Source of the DNA: Cenococcum geophilum 1.58
Taxonomy: Eukaryota > Ascomycota > Dothideomycetes > Gloniales > Gloniaceae
Assembly (NCBI GenBank): GCA_001692895.1
Contig: KV748211.1
Coordinates: 558,001-622,000, forward strand
Direction: 5' to 3'
DNA: 64,000 nt
Position numbers and translations under genes: made by a program
Shown: positions 19,219 through 52,432 of the stretch, in pieces
How the letters are laid out: every line of letters starts with the position of its first letter
How positions within the stretch are numbered: the stretch's first letter is position 1
The notes under the pieces: generated by a model
Seen by the model: the letters and a program-made list of their open reading frames with translations, nothing else
What the model was told of the DNA's origin: nothing
The model's database searches: none

Positions 19219-19244
19219 CGTTAGGAAAAAAGTTACCAGCATTT
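19219..19244 (+). repeat. Left terminal inverted repeat of the giant element
   Basis: 26 bp starting CGTTAGGAAAAAAG. It differs from the right TIR at two positions (T/C at 4, G/T at 14). Confidence 0.85.
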
Positions 19245-19395
19245 AATTTTACTTTTTTGCCATTTTAGCATTTTCTAGCATTTCTAGCATTTCCTAGCAT
19301 TTAGCTGCCAAATGCGGCATTTAGAATTAAGTATTAGCATTTAGCTGCCAAATACGGCATTTATAATTAAGCATTAGCATTTAGCTACTAAGTGC
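19235..19395 (+). repeat. Subterminal GCATTT repeats, left
   Basis: At least nine GCATTT or AAATGC motifs, including two near-identical tandem units of about 57 bp built around AGCATTTAGCTGCCAAAT and GCGGCATTTAGAATTAAG. Subterminal repeats of this sort serve as transposase binding sites in CACTA/EnSpm-like elements; that role here is an inference. Confidence 0.75.
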
Positions 19396-19599
19396 TAACT
19401 ATAAGATTACTAAGCGTATATAAAAGTATAATTTTTATAATTTTAATATTTTATATACACTTTATTAATATTACTAAGTATATAAAAAAGTATATATTTT
19501 ATATTTTATATATATTTTATTAATATTAGTAAGCATAGGGGGCAGGGCGGTATTATAAAAAACTTTACTAGTATCTTAAATTAGGTTTATGCTAATTAA

Positions 19600-22500
19600 G
19601 CAATTTTAGTATTTAGCCGTATTTAGTTATATTTTGCGGCTATATACTACACCGCTAATAATAATACTATAATTTATAGCTAAACGCTGCCTTAATAATA
19701 AAAGTGCTATAAGCTGCAGCTTAATGCTCTCTTAGAAATAATAATACTAAAAATATTTTAGTTAACTAAGTTTACTATATACGCTACGCTACTACCTATA
19801 AGTTACTAGAAGATATATCCCTTAGCCTATATATACGCCACTATATAATTATAATAGGTTTTGCCATATAGCGGCTATATATAGTATTTAGAATTATCTA
19901 TAGTTACATTATACTCTTATAATCGTTACTAGTATTAGATAGTCTTAGTGTCTTCCTTTTTACCTTAGCCTGCTTTTAAGCTTAAATCGGCCTTCTCCTT
20001 ATATACTAACTTATGTAGTAATAATATAAATTTAGTTAACTTTAATATCCTCTACTTAATACTTAACTTTTAATTAGCTATAATAGTATTATAGTAAACG
20101 GGCTTAGTCTATCCTTGTTAATCTATCTAAGTAAATAGTTGCTTTACCTTTAAGAGCTTATAGCTTAGCTTAACTATAATAGTATAATTTACGCGCTATA
20201 GGTTAATAGATAGCCTAATTAATATAAAGGTACAAAGTAGGATCCACTTAGAGTTATTAGTGTTAAAGGTTTACCTAGCCTTAGCCTTCTTAATATTAGA
20301 TATACTAGCTATATAGCAGAGCATTTTATCTTTACTATATTCTTTATATAGCCTATTAAACTAATAAGCTAGTATAAGAGGTAAGTAAGTAGTAATAATA
20401 ATCTTACACGCTAAACTATCCGTTTATTTTTTAATATAAACGTAATTATAGATTTTTTTTAGCTTAAAAGAACTTTATATTCTGTTAAAAATAGCGGTTA
20501 AGTATATTAGTAAACTCCTTACTAAGCGGGTTAGTAGTCCACTTAGTAATAATTGGGTTCTTAAGTGTGCAACTTTAAGTTTTTAGGCGTTTGTTATTGG
20601 ACTTATTAGACTTATTAGACTTAATTATAATAGGGGCATACTAGTCCTAGTATTGGATAACCTAGGCTACGCTTACTACCGTTTTCGCGTTAGTGTATAA
20701 CTTGGCTTAGGTAAGTTTTAGTATCTTAGGTTTAGTATTTAAATTACTACTATCTTTCTCTTATATAGCTGGAAGTTCCTTATATTAGCGCCTCTACTTT
20801 ATCCTTACTTAGTCCTCTATGGCTGTAATTATAGCCGCCTTAGTATTATTAGGGTCGGCCTATAATATAACTAATTTAAAATAGCTGTTCTTTAGGATAA
20901 GCTTTTACTAGTTAAACTAAAGTGTTAACTCCCCTCCATATATCTAAAACGTTAGAATAACTATACGGAAAAATGCAGCTAGTTCGCCGAATTTCCTATC
21001 TATTATTACTCTAACTAGGTTAGTCTTCGTATCCTTATAGAGATAGTTAAATTTCTTCTTCTTTAGCTAGATGTTTTTTCTTTAAGCTTAAGCAGTACTT
21101 TAAACTCCGTTCCTTTAGCTTATTAGCTTCTTTCTACTCTGGCCCTTTTAATCCTACTATAATAAACCGCATTAGTTACATTAGGTTTCCGTTATTAGGC
21201 GTACTAAATACACCCTATATATTAGGGCTGCGATTATATATAATGCGGTACTCCTTAATTATATCCTTAATAAACAATATTAAGACTCTACCGGTCGCGT
21301 CTAAGTGGTATTCGTCCTAGAGGATACGCCTAACCTATATTACACTTTTTAATTTCTAATATATTCTAGGGGATTGGTTATTTAGGTATTTCTATATACT
21401 AGTTTATATAGTAATAAACCCGCGTATTAGTTATGTGGTAATACAATTTCGCGTAGTAATTAGAAGGAATTAGGTTAAGTATTTTAGCACTAATAGTTCC
21501 GTTATATTAGGGGTAGGGCTATAATTATTCTTAAACCTAGCTTTACTTTATAGGTGTAATAAAAGAGCCTTACTAACTAGATATATATCGTTATTATTTT
21601 CCCATTATTCCTTATTAGTCTACTTAAAAGCCTTACGGATTTGCGGCTATTTATCCTTTTTTAGTTTACTAAATATTTTAACTTTATTATAGCTAGGGGC
21701 GAGAATTGTAATCTAGGGTGGGTTATGGCGCTTTATAATCGCGCCGTTTTATAATATTATACTCGCGTTTTTTAGAAATCTTAGTAGGCCCGGGGTTAGC
21801 GTAAGGACGACTAAGTAGCCTTACTATAGGTCTATAAGGTATAGCTTCTTAAAGTTGTCTTTATAGTAGTATATAATTGGCTGCTTTGCTACTTATAGGT
21901 ATTTTATATCCAGCAGATATATCTTAGGTAAGTAGTAGGTTATATTTCTAGTAGCTTAGGCCTCTTAAATATCTATTACGTTCTAATAATAAAAATAGTT
22001 TATTAGCTATTAAGTGATTATTTATATAGTCTTGCCCGCGCTAGGTTCGTCTGTATAGATACCGCCTCCTTTAATTATCCTCTTTTATTTAAATACCTAA
22101 GCTATATATACTACTTAATATAGGCTAAATTTAAAGCCTAATATAAGGCCCTAATTAGGGAGTTCGATTAGGGCGGTCTCGGAAAGTACTTTTAATAAAA
22201 TAAGTAGGAAATACTCTAGAGTGAGTAGAAAATCCACATCTATTACGTACGCTAGTATACTATCTAAGTTATCCTTCCCGGGCTTATAGAGCTGGGCTAA
22301 GAAAGTTTGCTAGTTAAGTTCTTCCTCTACGTCTATATTTTAGTTGTTATTATTAACTAAATCCTTATCTCAGTCTCTACTCTCTATATCCTTAGAGTTA
22401 GTGTAATATAGGAACTAATTATTATATCTATTAGCACGTTACGGCAATTTACTATCCTTTATAGTAATATTTTAAGGGATATTAATGGTTAGTAATATAG

Positions 22501-24060
22501 TAGTAGGGTTGTTTATTATATTATTAGGCTAGTATATACCTTTAGGTTTGGTAATAGATTATAGCAATTTACTATTATTTGCGGCAATTTCTCTAATACC
22601 GCTATTACTCGCTAATATAGGCTTATAGGTAGATAGGTTACGTCTTCCCTTTACTAATTACCTTCTACGCATAACTGGCTTATTATTGCTGTTTTTTATA
22701 AAGATGCCTACCGCTAATTCTACTTAAGGGCGTTTCCTACTTCTATTTAGGTTGGCTTTATAACTATTTAACTTCCTAAGCGTAGCTAGCTTACTTTTAT
22801 TATCCTCTGCTAGAGTACTTATTACTAATTTTAGTTAAGGCCACTTATTATATCTACCCGATTTAGTTTTATTATTATTTAATTTCTTATATCTAATAGG
22901 CTTGCCCTTACTATTTTTATTAGAGCTATATACTACTAATCCTAAATAACTCCGCTTCTTACCTTCTCCTAGTTTACTCTTACCGCTAGCCTTATATAGC
23001 GTTAGGACTTACTAGCTATCTTTTACGCTATATCTATTACGTTTAGGCGCTTTAGATTCGATAGCTAGCGGTATATTATTAGTGGCAGCGACTTAGGAGT
23101 TTAAGCTAGGAGGCGAGAGTAATGCTATAAATACGGCCTCCTTTGTGCTATTTCTTGCTATTTTGCTAAGAGCTATAATAAGTATGCCCTCTAACTATAT
23201 TATAAGGTTTTTATATCTTTATAGCAATATATAGATATTCTTTTTAGGCAGACCGTTAATATTAAGCTCTATATAGGCTTGCAGTTCCTCCTATAGCTTA
23301 CCTAGAGCTATATATAGGTTTCCGCTTATTAGATATAAGACTTAAACTACCCTAACTATTAACTTACCTATTAAGCCTATAGATTAGATTTTAATCTTAA
23401 TATCTTTTATATTAATTACGTTGCTTGCCGCTAGGGTTACTAGCTAAGGTAAAGGGATACTATATAGTAGGGTTATAGTAACGTCTATAGGCTATATCGC
23501 ATATAACAGCTAAGGTAGCGTCGTCTTATCTTATACTTTAGTCTTTAGAGGTAACGTATATTTATATAGAGCATACCCACTCTTAGAGGTACTTAGTGCC
23601 CTCCTTGCGCGATTAAAATAAGTACTTCCTATAATTTTTAGGATTACCTACAGTTTCTAATCTAGTAGAGTATTAGTAAATTGTGGGAGTTACTTATAAA
23701 ACTCCTTAACGTGCCCTTTTTTTATTATTATAGAGTTACTGCAATATATTACGTACTTAGGCTTAACTTTAATTATAATATCTTTAATATTCTTTTTTAG
23801 TCTATTATAGTTTTTAATGCTTATTTTAAAGCCTTAAGTAATATCCGTATCTTTAGTTAGCTTTAGGTTCGCTTTATACTACGCGTTTAGCTTTACCTAT
23901 AATTGCGTTATTATTAAATCACTTATTTAGTTAGGTATGCGTAATATTACGGTATATATTAAGTAGAAGGTAACTATTAAAGTAAAAGGGCTTTATACAG
24001 TAGCTAGCTAGCACTATACTAGTATAACTCTAGTATTAGACGTAGTTAGAGGTTAGTTAT
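19600..24060 (-). pseudogene. SNF2-like helicase/ATPase remnant of the giant element
   Basis: On the minus strand a long stop-riddled frame runs from about 24,060 leftward. At 22,028-22,070 it reads GGIYTDEPSAGKTI, a Walker A motif preceded by the G-G-I-x-A/T-D-E sequence typical of the SNF2/SF2 nucleotide-binding start. Downstream, at about 21,303-21,335, RRIL*DEYHLDATG fits a DExH box (motif II). Further along, residues remain coherent (for example KLKERSLKYCLSLKKKH near 21,050-21,110). The N-terminal region (about 22,600-24,060) has coherent blocks such as LGKLQEELQAYIELNINGL but no domain I can name. Exact ends are uncertain. SNF2-family ATPases remodel DNA-protein contacts; a role in transposition or chromatin access is inference. 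It is divergently arranged with the UPF1-like gene. Confidence 0.55.
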
Positions 24061-24380
24061 AAGAGACGAAAGGTAGGATAAGTAAAGTTAATTAAGAAGA
24101 AATAAAGAAGTAAATCTTGTAATTACCTGCACGTGCCCGCATAAAGATAAAATTAGCTATAGTTTGCTACTACTAGTTAGGGTAAATACGGCTAAACTTA
24201 ATACTATATAGTTAAATAAGGGTATAATTATATAACTTATAGGGACTACCCTACCTAGCCTATTTAGGGCTAGGTGGCAGTTTAATACTACTAAACTCTT
24301 ATAGTTTTTAATATAAGTAATTTATTAAGTGCCTATAAAGGGGTAACTAGTTATTATAGTATAATAGAATATAAGAGGTT

Positions 24381-24704
24381 ATAGGCGTTACTATATTTCT
24401 TATTATTATATAGAGTCGGTATATATGCGCGCCGCTAGAGTTAAAGGGCTGGCCTATATCTATACGTATGGGCTTTATTACTGTAAAGTGTTTGCTATAT
24501 AATAGGTAGTATTTTTAGTAACTAGTAATATATTACACTTATTATAGGCGTTACTATATTTCTTATTGTTATATAAAGTTGGTAGATATACGCGCTACTA
24601 AAGTTAAAGGGCTAGCCTACATCTATATATGCGGACTCTATCGCTATAAAGTGCTTAATATATAATAGGTAGTACTTCTAATAGACAGCAACATATTATA
24701 CTTA
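24381..24704 (+). repeat. 162-bp tandem duplication
   Basis: Two copies, starting ATAGGCGTTACTATATTTCT at 24,381 and 24,543. Differences between copies are mainly transitions, consistent with RIP after duplication. Confidence 0.88.
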
Positions 24705-24897
24705 CTTTATAATCGTTAGTGTTATTATTATATTATATAGTACTTAAGGGCCTACTAGATAAGTCTATCTAAAATAATAATTATTTAGTATATAGGATTT
24801 ATGTCTATATATAAACATCTAGTGCTTATTTAATATATATCTACTATAAAAGGTAGTAGGAGGTTTTATATCTTATATTATAAGTTTATATAATTAA

Positions 24898-24945
24898 TAG
24901 CATTTTGCGGTATTTTGCGGCATTTTAGGGCATTTTAGAATAATA
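24898..24945 (+). repeat. Internal GCATTTT/GCGGTATTTT motif cluster
   Basis: AGCATTTTGCGGTATTTTGC followed by GGCATTTTAGGGCATTTTAG, the same word as in the subterminal repeats at both ends of the giant element. Either a binding-site cluster or a relic of another element end. Confidence 0.6.
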
Positions 24946-25439
24946 GATATATTGTATATACTAGCATCTAGCTACTTAGCAATATTAACTTATCTTACTA
25001 TTTATCTATTTAGTATTCTACTATAGTATTTATTATATTAAAGTCTCTTAAATTTAATATCTTTATTTTAGATCTATTTAGAACTATATATAGTTTTATA
25101 ATATTCTACTTCCCGCCTAGTACTCTAGTAAGAGATTATTTAGTTAATAATACCTTTTCTCTTACTAATTAAGGGAGGAAATGACTTATACTTTCTAGTA
25201 GTAGTAGGCTATACTTATTAGTAATATTTTAAATAGATTACGGTGTTTAAGTTTTTGTTTACCTATAACGTAATTAGCCTGCCTATAGTAAAGTGCTTTT
25301 ACTTTACTACTTACTTCTCTTTTTTTTTAACCCTTTTATACATTTATATACTCGTATTATAAACTATAAGAGTTTAATAGTGCTAGACTATTGCCTAGCC
25401 TATATTAAAAGATAGGCTAGGTAAGATAGTCCCTATAAC

Positions 25440-28400
25440 TTATACTATACCGCGTCTTCCTCTATAAGTTGGTCTTATTATTATAGATTTACCCTTATAC
25501 GCGTTTAACCTATAGAGTATATAACTATATACTTTGCCACTAAGGCCTTACTTATACAATTTTATTAGGGCGCGCCTTATTTCCTTACCTTTACTAGTTA
25601 ACCTAACTTTACTAACTACCTACCCTTACTCCTACCCTATTAGTATCTACCTTTATAACTGGTACCTTTATAGATTTATTTAAGCTATAGAGCCTTATAA
25701 TATAGTAAGTTAGCTACTTTATCTTTAGCCTTAGCTATATAATAAAGAATCTATATTTACTAATACGTTTATATAAACCACTGCTTAGTATAGCCTACTA
25801 CTAAAATAGACCTACCTACTAATTATTTTATAACTTATAATGTTAACTACATCTATAACTATAAAAAGTTTACTAAGGGCGTTATAGTTTTTAAGATTGC
25901 CTTAACTATAGTAGTTATAGGCTCTGGTGTCTTATAAGGTAATAGTAAGGGCCCTACGCTTAATAAGTCTCTTCTTCTAAAGCTTGGCAGTCTATACCTC
26001 TTAGCTAATAACGCTCTAAAATACTATCTTTATCTATTCACCAGCTATATATACGCTAATTATTCACTTGGGAAAGCTTCTTAACTTTATTATAGCTATA
26101 ATAAGGCTAGTTATCTTAAAGCTAACTACCCTAACCCTATATATAATAATTATAGGGAAGCCGGTTATTTTAAGAGTAACTGTCCGAGTATAATATATAA
26201 CTAATATAGTGCTATAGGCTATAAAAAGCGAGACTATCCCTAGCTATTAAGTAAGAAGAAGCGGACTTGCCTAAACTATAGCTCCCTAAATTATTAAACT
26301 ATCTTCTATAGTTAGGTATATAAGAACTATAGAGTTATAGGGTATAATATTAATAATTATATAAGTAGACCTACTTTAATTCGGGTAATAAATGCCGTAA
26401 CCGCTCTGGGCAAGGTAGATATACTAAGTACTACCGCTTTAAGTATAGCTACTACCTCTTTATTGCCTAAACCTCTTAATATAGCCAGCTTCTATCTAGT
26501 AGTAGATAGCCTAGTAGATAATCTAGACACCTATATAGAGGATAGCAATTCTATAATAGCCAAACCTTTAGATATACTCCAGCTTCTAAATAATAACTAC
26601 TTTATAGTTTAGTTTGTTATACAAATTATTAAAGAGTATATTACAGCATATAGCATTATATTTTAGGTGTCCTATAAGACTAGTAAAATGCCTACTTATT
26701 ATTTATATAAGATAGCGTCTGTCCAATTTATAGATGTTAATATCGCCAGCGACGTTAAAGTTAATACTACTAATGCTACTTCTCTAGTTACTTAATAACT
26801 GTTATATCTAACTACGCTTAAGTATCTTACTTATATTCTCCCGTAAGATGCTATAACCCTATAACTTTACTATATTAGGTTTGTTATCGCCTCTAATAAA
26901 CTTATATTAGGTACGCGCACGTTACTTAGTAAGTACTTATTTATTAATAGGGACTTCGGCCTATTTACGCCGTAAATCTATAAAGCTTAGGATATACTAT
27001 TAAATAGTCCTATAGTTATTATCTACTTCTTTACACCAGGCACTAAATAGCTTAATAGTTATATTGTAAGCCTAAACGCAAGCCTATAATAGTAGAGTGT
27101 TAATAATCCTTTAGGTCGCTAGTGGAAGAACTATAATATAAATATTTAGCTTAGTATGTAGCTCTTAGTAGAAGACTAACTATTATATAAAATCCCCGTA
27201 AGGTATTAGTTTAATAGCGTTCTTAAGTATTTTACGGTCTAGTTTTATACCGTAGTTATAAGCCTTAAGGCCGTTAATTAAAACCCCAAGGTACTTATTA
27301 TTATTTATCTTATTACCTTCCTAGGTAGTGTAGACTAAGTCTACTATGCTGCTATCTAGATGGTTAATAGTCTTACCCTTTATACTAAATTTATTATTAA
27401 TATCTTATTTCTAGATAAAGATGTAAATAGCTAGGCCAGCTAGAAAGGAGTTATTATTAATACTACTTCCTTCAGCTTCGGCTATAACTACTATACTTTT
27501 ATCTTTTAACTATAGGTAGGTTATAAGTTTATACTAAACCCCGTATTTGCTCTAAAGTATATCCTAAGCAGCGACGACTTTATAATAGTTAGTAACCTAA
27601 GTAAGGCCCTAATTACGGTATAGGGCATTAAATATCTTATAACTAAGCGTGTCCCTAATGTTAGAATCTCCTAAAAGATTAATACTTTACGCTACCTGTA
27701 GTAAGGAGGCAACAGTTTCTATATTAAGCGCTAAATTACGCTATCTAATAAATTTATAGATCTTCCGCGTATTAATTACTTTAACTATAATATTACTAAG
27801 TATAGGAAGAACTTGGTTAATAATGCCCTTAAGGCTGTCTTACCGCTATTTAATAAAGAGTAAATGGGTACCTGTACTACACTTAAATATATAATAGGCG
27901 GTATTTTACTAATATAATGCCCCAGTGGTGTTAGGAAATTAACCTTTTTAACTATTTTAGTATAATACTAGTATTAACTTAGGTTGCCCTAGTAGGATCC
28001 TACTAGAATCTAGGTCCTATCGCCACTTAATTACTAACTAGATATACTAGCTAAGGCGATTAATAATGCGCTTATAGAGGACTATAAGGCACTAATTACG
28101 TAAGGCCGTCCCGCTAAATTTCCTATCGTCCTTTGCCGCTATATGCGCTTAACGGAAACCAAGGTCTATAAGCGGGATACCGTTATATAGCAAACAGCGG
28201 TAGGTATTAATACTTATCCTAAGTATTTTAAAGAATAGGATAACTATGCTATAATTAATAAGGACGCGTTTATACTAAATATAGCATTCCTGCTCTACTA
28301 TACGTTTAAGGCTAGTAATGCCACCGGCTTTAATAAGCAGTTATAGGTTATAGATTTATCTAAAGGTTAGTAGTTATTACGCCTTATAGGTGTCTTAGAC

Positions 28401-29880
28401 AGCGATAGAAACCTATATCTTATTATAGACCCTAATATAACTAAATACGCCAAATTCCGCTAATACTTATACTAATTTGCGCTTGGTAATAATATAACAC
28501 AAAATAATAAAATTGGATTAATACTTGCGGTTAACGTAGTTATTATAAACCTAGCTAAGAAGGCTAATATTATTCTTATAATACCTAATATAGTCTTGCA
28601 GACTTATATATATTTTATTAGCGCTATATATATAGTTTTCTATAACAAGGCTAGGAAGGCGTCTAAGTTAGGTAGTCTTGCTAGGTTCGCTTAGAGTAAA
28701 CTATATTTAATTTAGGGAGATCTATAAATCTAGGCTAGCAACCTAGTGCCTTAAGTTCTCTTTAGTAATATATACTAACTAAAACCAATTCTTAGTCCTA
28801 ATTTTAATAATCTATTCCACTATTAGAAATCTATCTCCCTTTATACGCGTCTCCTCGCGGCTAGTACGGATATGGTGTAGTTCTCACTATAATATTAATT
28901 TATTAAAGATATTGCATATCTTATAAATGCCGTTCTACCGTATAGCTAGCTTTAGATAAGCCTAATAGTTAAGGACTAAAAGCAGTTAAAGCTAGTAGTA
29001 AGCTTTTTTAAGGATATACTGCGCTGCGACTACCCTATTGCCTTCCTTGCTGTTAATAGTACTATATAGGTAAACGAGCTTAGCCAATTAACGTATAACC
29101 TGGTCTACGCTTAACGCGTATTCTAAGTAGCTATAGCGCTAATAGACTTTAGATTTAAGCTATTAGAGGTTAGCCTTACCGTTTTATATATAGTCTAACT
29201 TGCTATTTACTCCGCAGCGCTGTATACGCTTAAAGAATAGTATTATGCCTAGTAAGATAGCAGTAAGTAGCGGGAATTTGCACTAGTAGTTAGCGAGATT
29301 AAGGTCTTTACTGTTAACGGCATCTAAGGCAGCTAGGTAGAGTTATTAGTATATAATATAACAGTCGCTAGCCAGCTAAAATTTATCTAGAATATGGCGA
29401 GGAACCTTTTTATAATTACTAGACTATAAGCGGGCCTTATTATTATTGGTAGTCCCTAAGTAGTTTATAATTATTATACCGGCGATAAAACCTTTATAAA
29501 TACTGTATATTATAAAATTAAGAAGTGGTATAAGGATAATAAGGTATTTATTAACCTTAAGAATTCTAAGCAGAAAAAGCACTTCTAGCAACTTATTGCC
29601 TCGTTTAATGTTAATAAAACTATATAGTATATTTACCGCTAGCATATAGCTAATTATACGCCCATTTTATATAGTATAAACGTTGACTTTAATATTACTA
29701 TCCCTAACTTTACGGGTATAGTAAATATTAGCGGTATTAGTAATTATACTAAAGCGCAGAATAAGGCCAATAGAGAGGGCGCTAATAATAATAGCTAGGG
29801 CGGTGCCGGTAATAATAATAAGGATAATAATAGTGGAGAGGATGTTAGTGGTGTTAAAATATAAGGAGGGTAGTAAGGAT
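25440..29880 (+). pseudogene. CCHC-knuckle plus UPF1-like SF1 helicase remnant
   Basis: A single plus-strand frame runs about 4.4 kb if TAG/TAA are read as Gln/Trp. The N-terminal part has degenerate zinc knuckles (about 26,150-26,320: GYFKSNCPSII, then CLNYSSLNYQTIFYSQ), with several Cys now Tyr. The C-terminal third matches superfamily 1 UPF1/NAM7-type helicases: IVFYNKARKA near 28,633-28,661 (from a D-E-A-G box, D/E to N/K), LYLIQGDLQIQAS near 28,710-28,740, QFSLQYQFIKDIAYLI near 28,880-28,930, VFTVNGIQGSQVELLVYNIT near 29,307-29,366, and NLFIITRLQAGLIIIGSPQ near 29,407-29,460. The tail is Asn/Gly-rich (about 29,755-29,860). I did not find a clear Walker A. The family role is nucleic-acid unwinding; a role in this element is unknown. 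Confidence 0.72.
29424..29645 (-). other. Antisense open frame inside the UPF1-like remnant, not a gene
   Basis: A 73-codon minus-strand frame is open only because RIP removed CA/TG and left TA-rich codons; its residues are Ile/Leu/Asn-rich and it lies antisense to conserved helicase motif VI. Confidence 0.6.
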
Positions 29881-33633: not shown

Positions 33634-33880
33634 TGTGGGAGGGTACGACCACTCTTAGATAGGAAAGTCACAGTGCCGTCTGTCTGTCTGTCGGTCGGTC
33701 GGTCGGTCGGTCGGTCGGTCGGTCGTCAGTCGTAATCAATTAGTAGGAAAGCAGTNAGTAAGAAGAAAGGAAAGAATGTATTCCGGTAGGTCGTGNTGGC
33801 CAAGAAGGAGGGAAGCCGAAGGCTCTATAAATACAAGAAAATGCCAAGGTACTAGGCGTAAGCCATTTTACCCCACTATA
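33634..33880 (-). repeat. LTR1 (3' LTR of the tandem, minus orientation)
   Basis: 247 bp. It contains a GTCT/GTCG tetranucleotide microsatellite at about 33,678-33,725, one unit longer than in LTR3. Two ambiguous bases (N) occur at 33,756 and 33,796. Confidence 0.9.
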
Positions 33881-38733: not shown

Positions 38734-39062
38734 CCTTACTTATAATTTCTATAACACTCTTTTACCTCCTATTGCCACTCTTTAGCCTATACATCAAGTC
38801 TAATGTCTATCTTTTCCGCTGTCTTTCTGTTTAGGGACTACCTGGTTCCCCTTACTATCCGATACTGCCTAGTTCTCTACTTCTGCTATCTTATTAGTCT
38901 AGCTAGCGGTTCTTTTATAGCTAATTATTCTTTTACAGCTAGCGGTTCTTCTATAGCTATAATATATTCCTGCGTATCTCCTATATATATAGTTGTGTAT
39001 AAAATACCAGACTTCTAATCTAAAGAGCTTGCCGTCGTCCCTATGTGGAATGCCATAAAATA

Positions 39063-39305
39063 TATAGGAGGGTACGACCACTCTCAGATAGGAAAGTCAC
39101 AGTGCCGTCTATTTGTCTGTCGGTCAGTCAGTCGGTCGGTTGGTCGGTCGTCAGTTGTAATCAATTAGTAGGAAAGCAGTCAGTAAGAAGAAAGGAAAGA
39201 ATATATTCCGGTAGGTTGTGGTGGCCAAGAAGGAGGGAAGCCGAAGGCTTTATAAATATAAGAAAATGCCAAGGTACTAGGCGTGAGCCATTTTACCCCA
39301 CTATA
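39063..39305 (-). repeat. LTR2 (shared middle LTR)
   Basis: 243 bp starting TATAGGAGGG where LTR1 and LTR3 have TGTGGGAGGG. It is the most RIP-altered of the three; its microsatellite is degenerate (GTCAGTCAGTCGGTCGGTTG). It serves as the LTR of both internal regions. Confidence 0.9.
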
Positions 39306-41699: not shown

Positions 41700-44140
41700 C
41701 TAGTTAAATATTCTACACCTACTATAGAGTCTACTTTAAGCGTCCGCCTCTAATGACCGTCTCTAATAACCGTCTCTAAGGGTCGGGCGATTTTGATAGT
41801 AGTCCTCCCTAGCTTTAGCTGCCTTCTCTATAGGCCGTAACCTAATCTGCATATAGTCTTCTAGTCATATATTACTCTCCTATGGCTTAATAGCTGTCCT
41901 GGTTACGCGGCTGTCTTTAAGGGTTAGGCGATTCTAATAGTAGTCCCCCTAGTTCGTGCTTTTTTTGTTACTAATCTCTAGTACTACTCCGTTATAGAAG
42001 GCCCGTTACTATGTCTATTCTTTTCTTAGTCTCTCTAAGTCCGTTCCCTAATACATATAGAGCTAGTTCTTAATACCCTCTAGCCGTCCTTTATTGCTAA
42101 GCCAAGGTAGTTTAGGTCTAGGTCGGTTGCGTATCCCAGCTACTAGTCTTCCTTAATTAGATAGATATACAAGTCCTTACTAAATAAGATCCTTTAAGCC
42201 TTAATACTCATACTTAGTAAAACGGTAACTTCCTCCGCATCTAAAACAGGTCTATTGGCCTGGGCTAGATCGCGTGCCATCCTGCTAACCCTATACGTCC
42301 CACTACTATCATCCAAAGGCAGTAGAATCTTGCAGATATTGAAAGTCTTACAGAGTAAAGGGAGCTCGGGTGCTGTTCTGCTAGTCTTTATATCCTAGTA
42401 CTAGGCTATATCCTTATACTAGGCCTTAAGCTGCAGCCTGGTTTAATAGCGTTATAAGCTTCTTTAGGTCTATCCGTATTTAATTAAGGAACGGCATTAA
42501 TCGTATAGCTACTGCAGGCTCCGTCTTACTTAGCCTTAGGCTCTTTAGCTAGCTTTCCATTTCACCAATTTCTTAATCTATGGTAGGGGGTAACCGCTAC
42601 CGCGTTAGGGCTCCTCTATGTATACCTGGTCTACCTAGGTCCTAACGTCTTCCTTCCCTTTAGCGGCCGAGCTCCTTAAGTTCTGGGCCCGTTTCCTAAT
42701 TGGCTTAACAGGCATCGGCTGTCTTACTTGGCTAGAAGATCGTAGGTGGTTATATAGCAGCATCTTTGCTTATGGCTGGCTGCTAATTACAGAACTGCTT
42801 AACCAGCTAACGAAGGCTCTGCTCCTTAGGGTCCATTTTTAATAGATAATCTGCGCCCTTATATAAACTAAGCCTATTCTCTACGGCTCTCTATAGCTGA
42901 TAAAAGTTAAAGAATTCTCGTCTATCTGGATCAGCTTCCGTTTTAGCCATAGCATATCTTTAATACTTAAGCGGAAGTCCTTTTATAAATAAGTATCCTC
43001 GCTAACCGTTCTCTAGGTTACCTACTTTAGTAGCCTTTTAAGAGATTAATGCGAACTGTTTATAGTACTCGCGTATGCTGTTTAACGGATTGTCCCTATA
43101 CTGCTGTATATAGGCTTCTAAGAATTCTACCGTTTCCATTTGTCGAAATTGGTCACTTCCTTAGTATTCTGCCCTAAGCTTTCTTACAAGCTCCGTCCAG
43201 CCACTAGCTGTAAATTTAGGCAAGCTTTGGATCTACATCCCTATCTAGTAATTGCAGTACTCTAGAAGGCCCTGGTGCTTCTCCTTACTTATTGCGTGGT
43301 ATCGGACGCATAGCCGTTTATACTACTTAATAAACTGTAATACGTTCTGTCCTACAAAGTAGGGAGTTCCAATAGTTCCTGGGGCTGGCATAGGCTAAAC
43401 CATAATATAGATCTTGTCTTAAGCCGTCGACTGCTAGTTATAGGATAGTACATCTAGAGCTTCCTTAGGAGCTTATAGGTGATCCTTACGGCTCCTATCC
43501 TTTATCTACTAAGAGTCATTAATCCTAGGTGTTATAAGTAAACGCTATAGTAAGTCTGCTTGCATTACTACCTAAGGTAATAGTGTCCTAGATAGCTGTC
43601 CTGGTGTTGGTTTATACTCAGCAAAAGAAGTATAGGCTTCGGTTCTTTTTAGCTACTTCTTAACGCCTAGAGGCCGGTCTTCCTAGAAGAGCACAGAATC
43701 GCCATCTTTCACTACTGCTGGGTCTTAATACGTCCATCTATTTTGGCCTGCCGTTGCTCCGCATAGTAGGGTGCTGCTAAGCCTTATACTTCCGCCTATA
43801 TCTACTTCTTTATAGAACGCCTTTAGAGCTGCCGCAGATACAATCCGGATGACTTAAAAGAAGATAAAGCTAAGCCAGAATAGGAAGCTTTTAAGGGCAG
43901 ATCTAATCTCGTGTACTTATAACCTTAGCTAGTATTCTCTCTTCTGTTCCTAAAGGGCAGCGCTAACTTCCTCTACCGCTAGATACCTTAGATCTCGTTT
44001 CTATCTAATTAATTAGCTCTTAGCTTGTTGTCTCTATATCTTTAATAAAGCTCTAGCCATGCTCGTGCGCGGGTAGTAGAAATATTGGGTAATTCCAACC
44101 GGTTGAAGTCGTCTAATTAGCTCGCCTGTTCGCTAGACGT
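41700..44140 (-). pseudogene. Gag-like polyprotein remnant, tandem copy 2
   Basis: Homologous to the copy-1 gag frame. The start codon is ACG here (44,138-44,140) where copy 1 has ATG. Clear blocks: PLGVKKWLKRTEAYTSFAEY near 43,610-43,675, LSRTLLPQVVMQADLL with TAG for Gln near 43,545-43,595, and MARDLAQANRPVLDAEEVTV near 42,220-42,285. Interrupted many times by TAG and TAA. This copy keeps more of the original bases than copy 1 in this region. Confidence 0.65.
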
Positions 44141-44469
44141 CCTTGCTTATAATTTCCGTAACACTCTTTTGCCTCCTATTGCTACTCTTTAGCCTATGTA
44201 TTGAGTCTAATGTCTATCTTTTCTGCTATCTTTCTGTTTAGGGACTACCTGGTTCCCCTCGCTGTCCGATACTGCCTAGTTCTCTACTTCTGCTGTCTCG
44301 TTGGTCTAGCTAGCGGTTCTTTTATAGCTAGTTATTCTTCTACAGCTAGCGGTTCTTCTATAGCTGTAGTATATTCCTGCGTATCTCCTATATATATAGT
44401 TGTGTGTAAAATACCAGACTTCTAATCCAAAGAGCTTGCCGTCATCCCCACGTGGAATGCCATAAAATA

Positions 44470-44712
44470 TGTGGGAGGGTACGACCACTCTCAGATAGGA
44501 AAGTCACAGTGCCGTCTGTCTGTCTGTCGGTCGGTCGGTCGGTCGGTCGGTCGGTCGTCAGTCGTAATCAATCAGTAGGAAAGCAGTCAGTAAGAAGAAA
44601 GGAAAGAATGTATTCCGGTAGGTCGTGNTGGCCAAGAAGGAGGGAAGCCGAAGGCTCTATAAATACAAGAAAATGCCAAGGTACTAGGCGTAAGCCATTT
44701 TACCCCACCACA
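44470..44712 (-). repeat. LTR3 (5' LTR of the tandem, minus orientation)
   Basis: 243 bp, TGTGGGAGGG to CCCCACCACA, nearly identical to LTR1 apart from a shorter microsatellite and a few transitions. One N at 44,628. It retains the inverted TGTGG/CCACA ends best. Confidence 0.92.
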
Positions 44713-47000
44713 ATAATACCTACAGCATTAAAGAAAGCTAGTAAAGAAGGAGTATATCTCCTATATACGGATAGCTAGGATTAATACTACTTTTTACTTT
44801 TAGCTATATTTATAGCTGATTATAAAGTACAGGTCACGCTTATAGGTATTAAAAGTAGCTGTAAATATTTAACTTATTATATATATATAAATAAACGATA
44901 TAATCTAACGACTACTATCTAGCGACTGTAGCCGTTTTATATATACTAATTAACAAAAGACTAAATACAAATGTAGTAGGAAGGTTGCGATACTAATAAG
45001 AAGAATAACTTAAATTATATTTAACCGTTCCGCAACTTTATATAGGGCTATAATTTATCTAATATTTACAAGATAATGGCGCCTAAATTCCTATACTAGG
45101 TACTTAAAGGCCTTACTAGTAAATATCTTATATACTAGATTAAGGGGCTTATATAAAGCGAAATATAGGCTAGAAAATATCGGGGCCTTAACATTCCGCG
45201 CATAAATAGTTATGGCTAAAAGATATTAAATATTAATATACTTATTACCACCCGCTTTGAATAGGTGGAACGATTTACTAATATAATAGTATGGGATAGC
45301 TAGGTAAATATCGGCCAATAAATAGAAAAGATATATAAATCTCTATTATAATAATTAGTCCCTACTATAGCACCCTTACTAAAATAGAATAAAGGCGCTA
45401 TACTATTTATCCGGGCGTTTATAGACTTTATTATACTATTTTAATATATATTATACGATAAATCAACCATCTAGTACCTAGTAGCAGCTATTTATAGAAT
45501 AGATAAGATAAAGGATATATTCCTTCCGTTTTAACTAAGTAAAATAGAACTACTACACTTTAATAATCCTAAGCTATATACTATTACCTACTATCTAAAG
45601 AGTATTTAGCAACTAAAAGTAATTAGAGGTATAAATATAGAGTATTTGGAGCAAGTATATAAGCTATAAAAGGTATTTTACCGTAGGACTAATAAACGGA
45701 ACAATTATAAAGAGTAGATACTACGATATAATACTATATATCTTAACACTATGCTTTAAAACGAACTTAAGCTATAGGTATTAACTAATATAATTAATAT
45801 AGTAAACCTAATAAGTGTAATATAGACAATATAACTAGGCCCTGCAGTTAATATATACGCATATCGCTCGTATATATCCCTTGCATTGATAGTGTACTTA
45901 GAGATGTGGCCCGTGCACGCGATCGAAGAACATCAACTTTCTTACGTCAAAAGGTTTCCACGAACCAAATTTGGGTATAGATTATGTCGCATACCTCTTT
46001 GCAAGACAGGGCTGTGTTAGCAGAAGCACGTAGATCGACTCAACACTAAAGAATGAAACTCTATATATAACATAGTACGAAAATTAACATGTTTATAGCG
46101 TTATCTACCGGTCTTAGTTATCTGGCAGAACGATCGACCGCCTGCGTATGTAGCTTCCTGATTGGTGCGCACGGAGCACAGCTCTAAGGACGCGTTTATC
46201 AATGCAAGGGATAGAACTTTGACGACTATATAACTTAGACACTTTAAGATTAAAGAATTAATATATCTATTTAGCGTATGGTTAAGGAGGTATAGCGCCG
46301 GATAGAGATTACTAACCTTATATTTAAACTAGCCCCCTTTATAAGGGAATGCCGTAAGTAGATTAATAGAATTTAGTAAATAAACTAAAACGTTAACTAA
46401 CTAAAGCCCGATAATAATTGGGTATTAAAAATGCCTTTAAGCATCTATTACAGCGTTATATACTATATTCGCTTTGGGAAAGACGCTACTAATACTAATA
46501 AGCTTAATAAGGTATTTACTTAATATACCCTATTATAAGCTAATACTAAAGCCCCCTACTATAATGCTATAATAGTGCGAGAATATAAGCGGGTAAATAA
46601 TAGCCTCTATAGCAATAAAGTAGGGAGGCTTTATCTGCTACTTATAATCCAGAATACTAGGCAATTAGATAGTAAGGGCAAATACTTAAAATACGCTAGT
46701 GCGTTAGTAGAGACCCTCTAAGTTTATAATAGTAGTAAAATTAACGCAAGAACTAGAATACTTAGAGTATAAAGTATAAAGCTATTTAATAGTAGGACAA
46801 AACGTACGCTGGATGCCCTCTAGATATATAACATTAACTATATCGTAAGGCCTATCTTACTTATACTAATAGATATTGACATTATAGACTGTTTCTTTAT
46901 AAATAACTATGGCAATTAGGATATATATAATATTATATATAATAAAGATTTTAAGTAAATAAATAGGGTATAGGTTAATATATATATAAGGAAATAGGCT
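44713..47000 (+). pseudogene. Plavaka-type transposase remnant, part 2
   Basis: The transposase frame resumes right after the TSD and continues through RIP stops: a region with HAYRYQKQLQIFNLL (about 44,835-44,880), a block near 45,070-45,190, LPPALNRWNDLLIQQY (about 45,245-45,292) and the tail KRVNNSLYSNKVGRLYLLLI near 46,590-46,650 with DCFFINNYGNQDIYNII near 46,890-46,940. These agree in order with the C-terminal half of Plavaka transposases. A 335-bp MITE (45,877-46,211) interrupts it. Confidence 0.65.
45877..46211. mobile_element. 335-bp MITE (TA target site, Tc1/mariner-like)
   Basis: The ends TCCCTTGCATTGATA (45,877-45,891) and TATCAATGCAAGGGA (46,197-46,211) are perfect inverted repeats. 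The inverted similarity extends imperfectly to about 45 bp (CTTAGAGATGTG against CTTAGAGCTGTG, then CCGTGC on both). TA flanks both sides (45,875-45,876; 46,212-46,213). The interior is GC-normal, keeps CA and TG dinucleotides and has no coding frame, so it arrived after the surrounding RIP or escaped it. The Plavaka frame resumes on the other side. Confidence 0.9.
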
Positions 47001-47049: not shown

Positions 47050-49303
47050 TAACTAGCAGCGCCAGATTATAATAAAGGGGTAGATTACTGTAACTATAAT
47101 AAACTAAAATATAATACTATTATATATTACCCTCTACGCGCTAGCTACCCTTTATATCCTATATACTGTACTATCTACCTTAAGAGTAGGTAAATATCGC
47201 GAAGAATTAGGCTTCTATGCGGTATAGAAAAAATATTACGTAAAGTAGAACCCTATACTATAGCAAGGCAATTTAATTGCCCCGTTATAAAGCCTAATAA
47301 ACAGTTAGGCCGCCCTCCTAACTTATTATTATAAGTTTATTAAAGCTCCTTTTTATATACTTAGTAAAAAATACCTAATTTATATTATAAAAGTTAACTA
47401 GGTCGTTATTTAAAGTATATTAGATATAAGACTCTAGACTATCTAGTATCTTTTAGGAAAGTAAGGTGTATGCAAAAGCTAAATAGTTTTACTAAACTAA
47501 TATACTTATCCTTTACCTATCTCATAGAAAAGTAAATAAAGACGCTATAAGTTAAGTAGTAGCTCCTAAGATAATCTAGATCTTAAAGGGGATAATATTA
47601 GGCTCTATACCGTAACTATCTCTATTAAAAGGTAAGGCTGTTATTAATGTGCTATAGTACGACCTATTATTATTAATTTTAATAACGTTATCCTAACGGA
47701 TAGTCCTATTCTTGTTAGACGAAAGCCTATAAACCCTAAGCAACCGCAAGATATCTAAAACCTATACTTAAAAGAAACGTATATATTACTTAAATAAACA
47801 ACCGCTATAGGATGACTTTAGATAATATATAAAGTAGCTACTTAGCCTAGTTAATATAAAGATATACGGTATCGCTTAGATATGTCTTATTATATAAGTA
47901 ATAACAGGCTCTATGCCTAAAGAGCTCTATCTTTCTCCTTAGCTAGAACTAAATATAAGCGGTCTAAATATACTAATAAAGCAGATATAGAAAGAGGTAA
48001 TTACTATTATAGAGTATTAAGTATGCTACTAGGGCTAGTAGTATATAAGGTTCGTAGTCCTTAAATTTAATAGTACTATACTAACCAATTTTCTAGCTAT
48101 ATAACTAGCTTAGCGTATTTTAGTATTATATAATAAATATAGTACGCAATACCGTTGCTAGGAGCTATTACTGCCTTAAACTAGATACTAAGGCTATAGT
48201 AAAGGAAGTAGCGGAACTACTTAAGGATAACCGCTTTATGCTTAGTAGCCTAATTAGTACTCTGCCTTTTACTATACCTAACTAACTAAGGCTAGGATAG
48301 AGAAACAAGATTTAGGGCGCTAATTATTACACGTTATATTAAGCGCGTATTCTTTAATACTAGGCTAAGGTTACTTGCCCTTAATAAAAATAGTACTAAT
48401 CTCTTCTCGCCTATTATAGCTAATATAATATAGCTTATATACGTAGCAATTTAATATACTTTTAAGGACTATAGAAGCGGAATATAAGTTATTTATAAGT
48501 TTAAAGCCAACGCTATAATTATAGGTAAATCTATAGGAAGCCTTTTACTATACTTACTAAAGCGTATTATATATAGTTGGGAGTAACTATAGAATACCTA
48601 GAAGAGCTACTAACTTAAGTATAATAAAAGGTTATGTAGGCTACTTCTATAATAAGTTAATAAAATACGGAATATAACTAGAGATAAGATACTATAGACT
48701 TAGTAGGCAATTAGTAATCTATTTAAGGATATTATAAAAGATCTAGAGGAACTAGATCCTAAGTATAATAATAGGTTTACTTAATAACCGCATACTATAA
48801 GTATAAACACATAATATTATATTAATCGCATCGCAACGTTATATCATAATACTTGCTATATACTATAGTACTTTACCACCATTTCCTCTATTATAATATT
48901 GCGCTATTTTAATTATTATATGCGGGCTAATAAAGATAATATAATAGGATAACGGTAGCCTAGTATATTTATTATAAAGAATAAACCCTAAAACCATATA
49001 CAAGGTCTCCTTTTCGCAGTATACTAATAAGATAATTTTAATGCTATATAACTATAATATTAACGCTATTTAAGCGCGCATTAAATAAATTTAAGGTAAT
49101 AATAAACAGAAAACAGGAATTAATTACTATATCTTATAGTATACTTTCGCCAGCGAGTTTAAGGTTATAGATATTACGGATAGTGCTATACTAGAGGATA
49201 TAAAGGCCCGCCTATAAAGTAGAGATAGACTAGTAATACTAGAATTTGCTAATAAAGAGGATAAAAGTAAAGAAGGTAGCGGAATAAATAGGGAAAATAA
49301 TAG
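47050..49303 (+). pseudogene. Unidentified gene of the giant element, part 1
   Basis: Plus-strand coding composition with TAG/TAA interruptions. Recognisable blocks: FNCPVIKPNKQLGRPPN near 47,270-47,320; LDTKAIVKEVAELLKDNRFM near 48,180-48,240; and FASEFKVIDITDSAILEDIK near 49,145-49,205. The C-terminal part is acidic and Lys/Ser/Asn-rich (NKEDKSKEGSGINRENNS). The family is not recognised; the size (over 2 kb) suggests a large protein. It is cut at 49,303 by a 2.2-kb LTR element and continues at 51,507. Confidence 0.45.
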
Positions 49304-49514
49304 TGTCGGTATCACCCGGGGGGTACTGCAATTGCAATAAGTAGTTCTGGTTCTTGGTTTTTATTCGTGTCTTATTATCGTCTACCAAAAGAGAAAGAAA
49401 GGTCGGGCTATCTATCGGGCCGTAGGCAGTCAGGTGACCTACGCTACGCCATGCGGTCCCTGCCCCATAACGCTTTACGCATAATACGATTTACAACCTC
49501 TACTTATACAGATA
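49304..49514 (+). repeat. 5' LTR of the 2.2-kb element
   Basis: 211 bp, highly similar to the 3' LTR (222 bp). The length difference comes from small insertions such as GGGGTAGTAAA in the 3' copy. Confidence 0.9.
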
Positions 49515-49604
49515 CTGGCGACCATTTACAAAAGGAAAGAAGGTAAGAAGTATAAAGGAAAAGTATATAGGTCAACAGGTCGCACAGGGCCAGTAATCGC
49601 GCGA

Positions 49605-49735
49605 ATGTCTCGGGTATTGCGAAATATTACGGATATTGCAGACGTTGCGGATATCGTTACGGATATTGGCGGATATCGCTACGGATATTGCGGATATTGC
49701 GGATTATCGTGAACATTCGGATATTGCGGGGAGAC
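49605..49735 (+). repeat. GGATATTGC-type short tandem repeats
   Basis: About ten degenerate copies of (A)CGGATATTGC / CGGATATCG within the 2.2-kb LTR element. Confidence 0.8.
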
Positions 49736-49974
49736 AGGTAAGCGCGTGCAGGGTGTTACTGAGGTGGTCCAAGTATCTAGGTTGTTCCTCCTCCCCCTGG
49801 GTCTGGTTGCTGTTGTCGGGTAAAATTGCAATAGGGTATGCTGTTGTCGGCCCAGGTTGCCGAGGGTCGTACTGCTGCTGCTGGGCAGGCTGCTGAAAAT
49901 TATACTGTTGCTAGTTAGGTTGCTAGGGTATAGATGCAACAGGTGGTTAAGGCGTCACAGGGGTATTCCGTAGA

Positions 49975-50395
49975 GGGAGCTATAACGTTTGTAGAGGGAA
50001 CGTAACGTTTGCAGAGGGAGCCGTAACATTTGTAGGCGGGGCCGTGACGTTTATAGGCGGAGCCGTGACCGTTTATGGGCGGAGCTTGCGCGGACGGAGC
50101 TTGCGCGGACGGGGCTTGCGTAGGCGGAGCTTATGCGGACAGGAGCTTGCGCGGGCGGAGCTTGTGTGGACGGAGCTTGCGCGGACGGAGCTTGTGCAGG
50201 CGGAGCTTGTGCAGGCGGAGCTTGTGCGGACGGGCTTGCGTAGACGGAGCTTGCGCGGACGAGGCTTGTGGGGGCGGAGCTTGCGCGGACAGAGCTTGCG
50301 CGGGCGGAGCTGTGGGTGGACGGAAGCTTGCGCGGACGGGAGCTTGTGTAGGCGGAGCTTGTGCAGCCGAGCCGTAACGTTTGGTAGGCGGAGCT
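49975..50395 (+). repeat. 15-bp GC-rich minisatellite (GGAGCTTGCGCGGAC)
   Basis: About 20 variant units, flanked by longer units containing GAGCCGTAACGTTTGTAGGC. Because 15 is a multiple of three, several frames stay open on both strands (Ser-Leu-Arg-Gly-Arg, Ala-Glu-Leu-Val-Gln and Gln-Ala-Pro-type repeats). No start context or conserved domain supports translation. Confidence 0.85.
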
Positions 50396-50532
50396 ATAAC
50401 GTTTATAGGCAAGGGGAGCTCGGCGAGGAAGGTTATTTAAGACAGCTGAAGCTGGGGTGGCAGACGACATCAGAGTTAATGGACGTAATTAAGACGGCGG
50501 TTAATGACATATAAATTAAAAGGCCTTCAGTA

Positions 50533-50727
50533 CTAAATGAATAGTCTAATTTCTTCATCTGACCATTCCGTACGGCCCTCACTCTGAGCGACGTCGTACA
50601 GTGCTTGTGGTACTGACTTGCTCTTTATAATTAAAGACCCATACTCTATTACGTCGGAGTAGTTGTTTAAGTCCCTTAAGTTCAGACCTGTCGGCGTCTT
50701 TAAATGTCTGCACCGTAAAATTATCAA
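50533..50727 (-). CDS. Small hypothetical frame (64 aa) in the 2.2-kb LTR element
   Basis: Minus strand, ATG start, residues of normal composition (NLRDLNNYSDVIEYGSLI, EGRTEWSDEEIRLFI). It lies between the minisatellite and the 101-bp repeat, in a region without RIP. It could be the tail of a gag or of a captured gene, read antisense to the LTR orientation inferred from the primer-binding site. No known domain was recognised. Confidence 0.35.
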   Translation of the reverse strand: MIILRCRHLKTPTGLNLRDLNNYSDVIEYGSLIIKSKSVPQALYDVAQSEGRTEWSDEEIRLFI

Positions 50728-50986
50728 AGTCCTCTTGGTAAATTCCCATAAGCTCTTATCCTTAAAGGTTATACTTGGTATAACTCTTTATATTTAAAGT
50801 CAATATAGTTAGTGATATCCTTCCGCAGTGGTCTCCGTGGTTAGGGTTATTCCGTTGGCCCAAGTTTAGACGTTGGGTTCCTGTGTTGGACATAACGGGT
50901 GTAGATTGTAGTAGAGGTAGGGGGTGCTGCTGAAGCTGCTGGGTTGTAGGGTGTACTGGCGCTCAGTAAAGAGGTCGTACTGGGTA

Positions 50987-51185
50987 TTAATTTGCGTAAT
51001 GGACGCGAACCGGGACGAAGCCTTGGGTAGGAGCCAGTTCTTTAAGTTCCCAGGGGCCTTGGTAGGAAGGGTTCTCCCTGTCAGTGGTAAATTTGCGTGA
51101 TGGACGCGAACCCAAAACAAGCCTTGGTAGGAGTCGGTTCTTTGAGTTCCCAGGGCCTTGGTAGGAAGGGTTCTCCTTAGCAAAC
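50987..51185 (+). repeat. 101-bp tandem duplication
   Basis: Two units starting near AATTTGCGTAATGGACGCGA (50,988) and AATTTGCGTGATGGACGCGA (51,089), each followed by GCCTTGG...GGAAGGGTTCTCC. A partial third similarity (GCCTTGGTAGGAGCGATCG) follows at about 51,203. Confidence 0.85.
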
Positions 51186-51279
51186 GCGACGTGATCGACG
51201 GGCCTTGGTAGGAGCGATCGCGTGTGTCTCCTCTCTTCGTAATAAACACCGGATTCTGATCTGTGATATCACTGATCAG

Positions 51280-51501
51280 TGTGGGTATCACCCGGGGGTA
51301 CTGCAATTGCAATAAGTAGTTCTGGTTCTTTGGGTTTTATTCGTGTCTTATTGTCGTCTACCAAAAGAGAAAAGAAAGGGGTAGTAAAGGTCGGGCTATC
51401 TATCGGGCCGTAGGCAGTCAGGTGACCTACGCTACGCCATGCGGTCCCTGCCGCATACGCTTTACGCGTAATACGATTTACAACCTCTACTTATACAGAC
51501 A
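51280..51501 (+). repeat. 3' LTR of the 2.2-kb element
   Basis: 222 bp, TGTGGGTATCACCC to ACAGACA, followed by the TSD AATAG. Confidence 0.9.
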
Positions 51502-51506
51502 AATAG

Positions 51507-51732
51507 TAATAAAAAGGATAAGAGTAAAGAAGGCAGTGGGATAAATAGGGAAAATAATAGCAAAAATAAAGACAATTAGGGGTTTAATGGTGTAGTACTA
51601 CTATTATAGCGGGACTTATATAAATATTAAACTTAAAATAGCAGGTTAACTAAAGGGCGTTATTAGGCGTATTAAGGTTATATTATACTACTATTAGGTT
51701 AAAATATATTCTTTATATAGTGTGTACTAGGC
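51507..51732 (+). pseudogene. Unidentified gene of the giant element, part 2
   Basis: The frame interrupted by the LTR element continues with NKKDKSKEGSGINRENNS, a second copy of the sequence just left of the insertion. Removing the insertion and one TSD places the two copies 54 bp (18 codons) apart, an in-frame tandem repeat in the original gene. Beyond about 51,600 (FNGVVLLLQRDLYKY) the frame enters a 27-bp minisatellite. Confidence 0.45.
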
Positions 51733-51867: not shown

Positions 51868-52004
51868 ACGCGGGAAGAGCAACGCTTATCTATTATTTAA
51901 AGTAAGTCAGATATATAGAATGCGTAAGGGGGGTATTATATATTAATTATATATTAAGTATAGAGAGAGCTTAATAGAATAAAGGCACTACTTATTTGGG
52001 TAGC

Positions 52005-52335
52005 TATAAATACATAATTAGCTACACCACGTTATTAGATATAGTAGTATATTTACACCGCGTTATTAAATACGGTAGTATACTATATTATATTATTAGA
52101 TATAGCAGTATGCTATACCGTATTATTAAATACGGTAGAATACTATACCGCGTTATTAGATTCGGTAGTATACTTATACCGCATTACTAGATACGGCAGT
52201 ATGCTATACTACGTTATTAGATACAGCAGTATGCTATACTACGTTATTAGATACGGCAGTATACTATATCGCGTTATTAGATGCGGCAGTATGCTGCACC
52301 GCGTTATTAGATATGGCAGTATGCTGTACCTAAGT
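52005..52335 (+). repeat. 30-bp minisatellite, about 11 units
   Basis: Unit core CGTTATTAGATACGGCAGTA + TGCTATACTA. The 30-bp period keeps a frame open (Y-V-I-R-Y-G-S-M-L-Y), which explains two spurious reading frames here. It sits just inside the right end of the giant element. Confidence 0.88.
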
Positions 52336-52364
52336 CAATACTATACGCTATATATTATAGTGCG

Positions 52365-52412
52365 TAGATTGCGCATTTGGCCGCTAAATGCCGCCAAATG
52401 CTGTAAAAATGC
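52365..52412 (-). repeat. Subterminal GCATTT repeats, right
   Basis: GCGCATTTGGCCGCTAAATG, then CCGCCAAATGC and AAAAATGC. These mirror the AGCATTT...AAATGCGGCATTT words inside the left end. Confidence 0.75.
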
Positions 52413-52432
52413 TGGTAAATTTTTTCCTGACG
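52407..52432 (-). repeat. Right terminal inverted repeat of the giant element
   Basis: Its reverse complement starts CGTCAGGAAAAAATTTACCA; 24 of 26 bases match the left TIR. Confidence 0.85.

Follow-up and report, generated by a model that had tools for sequence, protein, structure and literature searches.

Many eukaryotic cut-and-paste transposons encode a transposase, a single helper protein and not much else. The closest described systems to the locus reported here are the Plavaka elements, for which the main text of Kojima 2025 (PMC12730594) gives a target-site duplication of 2 or 3 bp and termini of TGT..ACA (PlavakaA) or CATCA..TGATG (PlavakaB), and, with regard to the organization of the ends, the En/Spm elements, in which, according to the accessible text of PMC2613891, the TNPA protein binds the subterminal repeats, is needed, alongside the transposase, for the element to transpose, and is able to block transcription. 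We analyzed a 64-kb window of Cenococcum geophilum 1.58 (contig KV748211.1, positions 558,001 to 622,000; the whole stretch of DNA to which all coordinates below refer), in which positions 19219 to 52432 are occupied by a giant element with terminal inverted repeats (TIRs), inserted into a long terminal repeat (LTR). A sequence-only reading of this DNA had proposed one TIR unit that joins a Plavaka-type transposase with an SNF2-like ATPase and a UPF1-like superfamily 1 (SF1) helicase. Judged from this one locus, the element is probably a single cut-and-paste transposon of the CMCT group (CACTA/Mirage/Chapaev/Transib), inactivated by repeat-induced point mutation (RIP), with a Plavaka-type transposase, a length of about 19.9 kb before other elements inserted into it, and the two helicases as standing parts. 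The single-unit structure, in which the earlier proposal is supported as far as one locus can do so, is supported by the ends, a CA duplication at the target site, comparable RIP loads in the two helicase genes and another cluster of the GCATTT motif, the third, between them.

The two 26-bp TIRs, at 19219 to 19244 on the plus strand and 52407 to 52432 on the minus strand, are identical at 24 of 26 bases, the same count as given before, and the ends of the element read CGTTAGG..CCTGACG. The 21-bp inner TIR core (20 specified bases, up to three mismatches allowed) has two matches in the window, namely the two TIRs, while two matches were found in none of 100 shuffles. On the left, the target-site flank ends ...CTCTCTCA, and on the right it begins CAGATAGG...; when the flanks are fused minus one CA, they align through the junction with three related LTR copies located within the element (32/36 identical to the LTR at 44.5 kb and 45/57 to that at 39.1 kb). 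The claim that the target LTR closes when the element is removed is thereby borne out. At the insertion point, two of the three internal LTRs have a single CA and the third has TA, a RIP-type change. The fused flanks thus match LTRs with a single CA at this position, which makes the target-site duplication 2 bp long (CA), with its copies at 19217 to 19218 and 52433 to 52434.

Two other insertions lie inside the element. The larger, at 33634 to 44712 on the plus strand (11.1 kb), is a tandem LTR element that comprises three LTRs, has ATAA flanks and is located within the Plavaka gene. In its second inner part (39325 to 44468), the three plus frames gave no Pfam family, and the retrotransposon label of this insertion is due to the LTRs and the ATAA flanks. 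The smaller, at 49302 to 51559 (2.26 kb), has direct terminal repeats (84%), a GC content of 0.50 and a RIP index of 0.65, below that of the remainder; it also contains a 15-bp tandem array (50067 to 50338) that is open in several frames. The nested insertions claimed earlier are therefore present, and with our own insert boundaries the previous estimate of 19.6 kb for the original length becomes about 19.9 kb. The relatedness of the target LTR to the nested LTRs suggests that this LTR family was active both before and after the arrival of the element.

The two helicase genes are divergent. The first, at 19968 to 23911 on the minus strand, matches residues 1 to 1328 of the protein P0002, with 84 stops in the aligned frames and two frame breaks; the second, at 25806 to 29867 on the plus strand, matches residues 1 to 1354 of P0001 in a single frame, also with 84 stops. 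P0001 (1355 residues, SF1) and P0002 (1328 residues, SNF2) are the one intact relative per helicase obtained from 5.8 billion protein sequences, of which the ~8,000 candidates sharing most words with each query were scored, and their clusters comprise 13 and 12 sequences, respectively. The window is identical to P0001 at 782 of 1354 residues, and allowing T-to-C and A-to-G changes, that is, reversing RIP, removes 526 of the 572 differences (92%; each of the five other classes removes at most 19) and accounts for 82 of the 84 stops. Along the SNF2 gene, aligned from 23911 down to 19968 in three pieces that share a few residues where they meet, 775 of 1314 residues are identical to P0002, and the same reversal removes 478 of 539 differences (89%; other classes at most 16 each) and 81 of the 84 stops. 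Residual divergence of the non-RIP kind is 46/1354 in the SF1 gene vs 61/1314 in the SNF2 gene. Because RIP reversal explains most of the differences, both genes may once have been up to ~95% to 97% like P0001 and P0002, which is an upper bound. To judge from these changes, the genes of the element are wrecked by RIP-type mutation; the TpA/ApT ratio across the element's own segments is 1.47 to 1.79 (high RIP).

The predicted UPF1-like SF1 identity of the plus-strand gene comes both from a direct match of the window to AAA_12 (PF13087, 28833 to 29456, E = 7.6e-9) and from the whole-gene match to P0001, which carries zinc knuckles of the form C-x2-C-x4-H-x4-C (six by pattern, five by Pfam), AAA_12 (71.6 bits, cut-off 27), a match to AAA_11 (22.1 bits) under its cut-off of 27, and, by pattern, SF1 motifs I, Ia, II, IV, V, and VI, with motif III irregular. 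For the minus-strand gene, the direct SNF2 match of the window falls short of significance (E = 0.83), and its assignment as an SNF2 family ATPase is indicated through the intact relative P0002, in which SNF2-rel_dom (27.2 bits, cut-off 24.9), Helicase_C (27.3 bits, cut-off 23.5) and, by pattern, helicase motifs I, II, V, and VI are present. Both identities thus agree with those proposed earlier, including the CCHC character of the SF1 protein. The nearest solved relatives of P0001 are UPF1/NAM7 (best 6.7e-13; UPF1 50 bits), and those of P0002 are distant SNF2 remodellers (best 0.0024, 19 bits). Against profile libraries, P0001 is closest to the IGHMBP2 helicase family (9.9e-14), with 50.7 bits vs a cut-off of 348.9, and to the defence protein MkoA (2.3e-16), and P0002 to HmaA (2.9e-7) and DrmD (7.6e-7), all four being distant matches that concern the motor domains. 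No match was found for P0001 and P0002 in viral contigs, for P0001 in GTDB contigs, or for the TIR pattern in both, results of little weight given that these collections are viral and prokaryotic.

A possible objection, which we consider improbable, is that one copy picked up the helicases as passengers that contribute nothing to the transposition or survival of the element. Large transposons commonly capture cargo. Genes of the TET/JBP type also occur on 11 lineages of fungal DNA transposons, including Plavaka, according to the main text of PMC12730594, and both facts count in favor of passengers. However, the relatives of both helicases among solved structures and profiles are only distant, so that a host helicase is unlikely to have been captured recently; the intact relatives retain motor motifs in the two clusters of sequences mentioned above; and the region upstream of both genes bears the motif found at the termini. 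The existence of close intact versions elsewhere suggests that the helicases belong to the element's way of life.

The motif in question is GCATTT, which forms a left subterminal array at 19239 to 19382 on the plus strand (nine copies on the plus strand, one on the minus) and a right one at 52373 to 52412 on the minus strand (three copies on the minus strand, one on the plus). With 10 copies per 200 bp on the left and 4 on the right, compared with a maximum of 3 in 200 Markov-1 controls, the mirrored subterminal repeats described earlier are present inside both ends and exceed these controls. A third cluster, which is a new observation beyond the earlier reading, lies between the divergent helicase genes at 24900 to 24935 (three copies, plus strand). 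Within the window, 40-bp stretches with at least three same-strand copies of GCATTT are found solely at the left end, at the right end and at this position, and such clusters occur in none of 200 Markov-1 and none of 200 Markov-2 controls. The exact 9-mer GCGGCATTT has three occurrences in the window, one in each cluster; with one mismatch allowed, there are 16 matches vs 7.3 expected, many of them outside the three clusters. By analogy with TNPA, a single DNA-binding regulator acting across the element may, by way of the third cluster, link the helicase genes to the ends.

The intergenic region also contains an inverted repeat with its left arm at 24231 to 24319 (plus strand) and its right arm at 25349 to 25444 (minus strand), parts of which are 91% and 79% complementary. 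These arms lie upstream of the divergent helicase starts, at distances of ~320 and 360 bp, and could be a promoter module common to both genes or a small element inserted here. The entire region as a single palindrome was rejected, with 82.5 bits vs a Markov-2 maximum of 86.8 (n = 100). A 163-bp unit is present between the arms in two head-to-tail copies (24379 to 24704, 81%), and a stretch of tandem repeats at 52007 to 52365 adjoins the right end on its inner side.

The Plavaka-like transposase claimed for this element is confirmed by matches to PF18759, in a domain split by the nested LTR element. The first part (PF18759 positions 40-163) is at 33164 to 33520 on the plus strand, with E = 7.8e-13 and 48.8 bits (cut-off 26.3), and the second (positions 198-321) is at 44737 to 45129 on the plus strand, with E = 2.2e-5; the two halves are collinear on both sides of the insertion, and the gene limits are not fixed. 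By this transposase domain and the 2-bp duplication, the element is classified as Plavaka-type. Transposases of the CMCT group have C(2)C and H(3-4)H motifs between the second D and the last E; in this RIP-mutated and interrupted gene, inspection of the translations by eye gave no clear assignment of these motifs.

The most serious competitor, although still unlikely in our view, is chance nesting of a helicase-bearing element and a Plavaka element, one inside the other, so that the outer TIRs would belong to only one of them. Nested elements are abundant in the region, the helicases and the transposase are known together from this locus alone, the intergenic inverted repeat (24231 to 25444) could be a small inserted element, and the RIP composite index is 1.14 and 1.18 in 44.7 to 49.3 kb vs 1.48 and 1.38 over the helicases, all of which would suit two elements. 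On the other hand, no second TIR pair stands above AT-rich noise around the Plavaka gene or the helicase pair (25 longest inverted repeats of 177 and of 84), the terminal GCATTT motif recurs between the helicase genes, albeit by a criterion set post hoc, and the 2-bp duplication suits a Plavaka-type transposase.

Of the two further genes that the sequence-only reading had left unnamed, one now has a match to DUF6532 (PF20149, 48284 to 48514, plus strand, E = 5.7e-6) within a region of weak coding signal in several frames (~46.2 to 48.9 kb). The other is possibly located at 30900 to 32150, between the SF1 and Plavaka genes, where a weak minus-strand coding signal is seen with no Pfam match. In Pfam scans of 41 partly overlapping read-through segments, no family beyond Plavaka, AAA_12, and DUF6532 passed E = 1e-3, and chance matches near this value occur; the long-frame scans overlooked both helicases, and AAA_12 was found with shorter pieces. 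A separate match, to an amino-acid transporter (E = 7.5e-4), was dismissed as noise from a RIP-mutated, AT-rich read-through frame, as were PFV_capsid (0.0034), YoeB_toxin (0.1), PH_10 (0.12), DraIII (0.039), DUF2115 (0.011), and NTF-like (0.0091) in frames of the same kind. Given these noise matches, an E near 1e-3 carries little weight in this sequence.

These regions bear on whether the element could be mobilised by a gene that went unrecognised, with the Plavaka gene itself as cargo, which we hold to be very improbable. The ends are unlike those of PlavakaA or PlavakaB, and the segments at 30.9 to 32.1 kb and 46.2 to 48.9 kb are wholly or mostly free of gene assignments, two points in its favor. 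Yet the 2-bp duplication and the subterminal repeats suit the CMCT group, and Pfam scans of the element, whose sensitivity is lowered by RIP and whose long-frame version overlooked the helicases, revealed neither a second kind of transposase nor a tyrosine recombinase or Rep domain.

Several results weigh against the element being one Plavaka-type unit with standing helicases. It is seen as one copy, and its unity is judged from one locus; P0001 and P0002 come from different sources, on contigs of at most 7.3 and 5.0 kb, and are not seen together there. The second PF18759 part, at 24.3 bits, is under the cut-off of 26.3, and a protein search for transposase relatives gave none among 7,991 scored candidates at E = 0.01. 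The termini CGTTAGG..CCTGACG fit neither PlavakaA nor PlavakaB. The RIP indices, at 1.40 and 1.28 in the flanks and 0.85 to 1.51 in the element segments, do not separate the two and are not even along the element. Regarding the motif, both the criterion of three GCATTT in 40 bp and the 9-mer were picked after the sequence had been inspected, the internal cluster with its 3 copies per 200 bp is at a level that the controls attain, and the arrays are putative protein targets.

If the element is nevertheless one unit, its transposase would cut at the TIRs, and an element-encoded protein, possibly the DUF6532 or the CCHC protein, would by analogy with TNPA bind GCATTT at both ends and in the divergent helicase promoter region, and could in this way couple the expression or supply of the helicases to recognition of the ends. 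The SNF2 and SF1 proteins would then be standing components acting in trans: the former would most likely open silenced chromatin at copies of the element, and the latter, with its zinc knuckles, would perhaps unwind DNA or RNA-DNA hybrids around excision or repair. They may, as the sequence-only reading proposed, reflect a mechanism for the mobilisation of large elements. As a tentative extension, which we think possible but would not bet on, giant fungal cut-and-paste elements may form a family that has two dedicated motor ATPases as standing parts and one regulator acting on the same motif at the ends and at the shared helicase promoter, so that a silenced 20-kb element can be opened, excised and repaired by a multi-component transposition and anti-silencing module. 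Should the two motor ATPases prove to be fixed here, the locus would offer a tractable case of a large silenced transposon that opens its own chromatin and moves ~20 kb, and the proposed connection of the ends to the helicase promoter region through GCATTT can be tested directly.

The window as a whole is AT-rich, with a GC content of 0.28 to 0.46 per 2-kb step from 4 to 64 kb of the window. Direct-repeat pairs at 4443-4695/9511-9763 (~5.1 kb apart) and 53167-53586/61672-62091 (~8.5 kb apart) are possibly LTR pairs, and 41-bp tandem repeats at 59019 to 59279 are open in several frames. The left part of the window is without a RIP signature; there, an open reading frame (ORF) at 2150 to 2656 has a ubiquitin domain at its end (PF00240, E = 2.1e-20), and ORFs 560-1051, 1052-2131, and 2995-3441 have no Pfam match at E = 0.01.

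Among other classes of mobile DNA, Helitrons encode a Rep/helicase protein and are without TIRs and target-site duplication; TIRs and a duplication are present here, and the Pfam scans of the element show no Helitron family. Starships are marked by a tyrosine-recombinase captain (DUF3435), which has no match in the same scans, at a sensitivity lowered by RIP. The KDZ elements (Zisupton) have an 8-bp target-site duplication according to the main text of PMC12730594, compared with 2 bp here, and no KDZ family was found in the scans.

The organization of the element resembles that of the soybean CACTA/En-Spm element Tgmt* (20.5 kb), with which, going by the accessible text of PMC2613891, it shares a size of ~20 kb, short TIRs and asymmetric subterminal arrays with GC-rich and AT-rich motif parts, while CACTA ends, a 3-bp duplication and a binding protein of the TNPA/TNP1 type distinguish Tgmt*; the word helicase is absent from that text. 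The CAC..GTG ends and 3-bp duplication of CACTA/EnSpm are lacking here and the subterminal arrays are present, a resemblance of organization only. En/Spm elements of 16 to 20 kb with four to five ORFs in the red alga Chondrus crispus, as cited in PMC6431247, are of the same broad clade and similar in size and in having several genes, their gene content not being stated there. The giant Plavaka repeats of Amoebidium, as described in the main text of PMC11244446, carry many tyrosine recombinase genes, unlike the element here, and that text does not contain the words helicase, SNF2, or terminal inverted. AcademH and KolobokH share with our element a helicase gene in a DNA transposon, and in fungi, but belong to other superfamilies and have helicases of the Helicase_C/DEAD type, with no SF1/UPF1-like partner mentioned in the part of PMC10799480 concerned.

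Large multi-gene relatives in the clade and helicase-bearing DNA transposons are thus already published, as far as these sources go (PMC11244446, PMC6431247, PMC2613891, PMC10799480), and neither size nor a helicase alone is new. No pair of SNF2 and SF1 genes in a Plavaka-type element was found in the literature searched, which mostly excludes subscription papers. The earlier remark that helicase cargo of two families is unusual applies, within the literature searched, to this particular combination with a Plavaka transposase. The nearest parallel is with the Plavaka families described in PMC12730594, which share the PF18759 domain, the 2-bp duplication and, in some families, an extra gene; in its main text SNF2 and ATPase are absent and helicase occurs once, for Helitron. 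The cargo there is TET/JBP and here two helicases, which, if our reading is true, would join TET/JBP as proteins borne by fungal transposons that may counter silencing.

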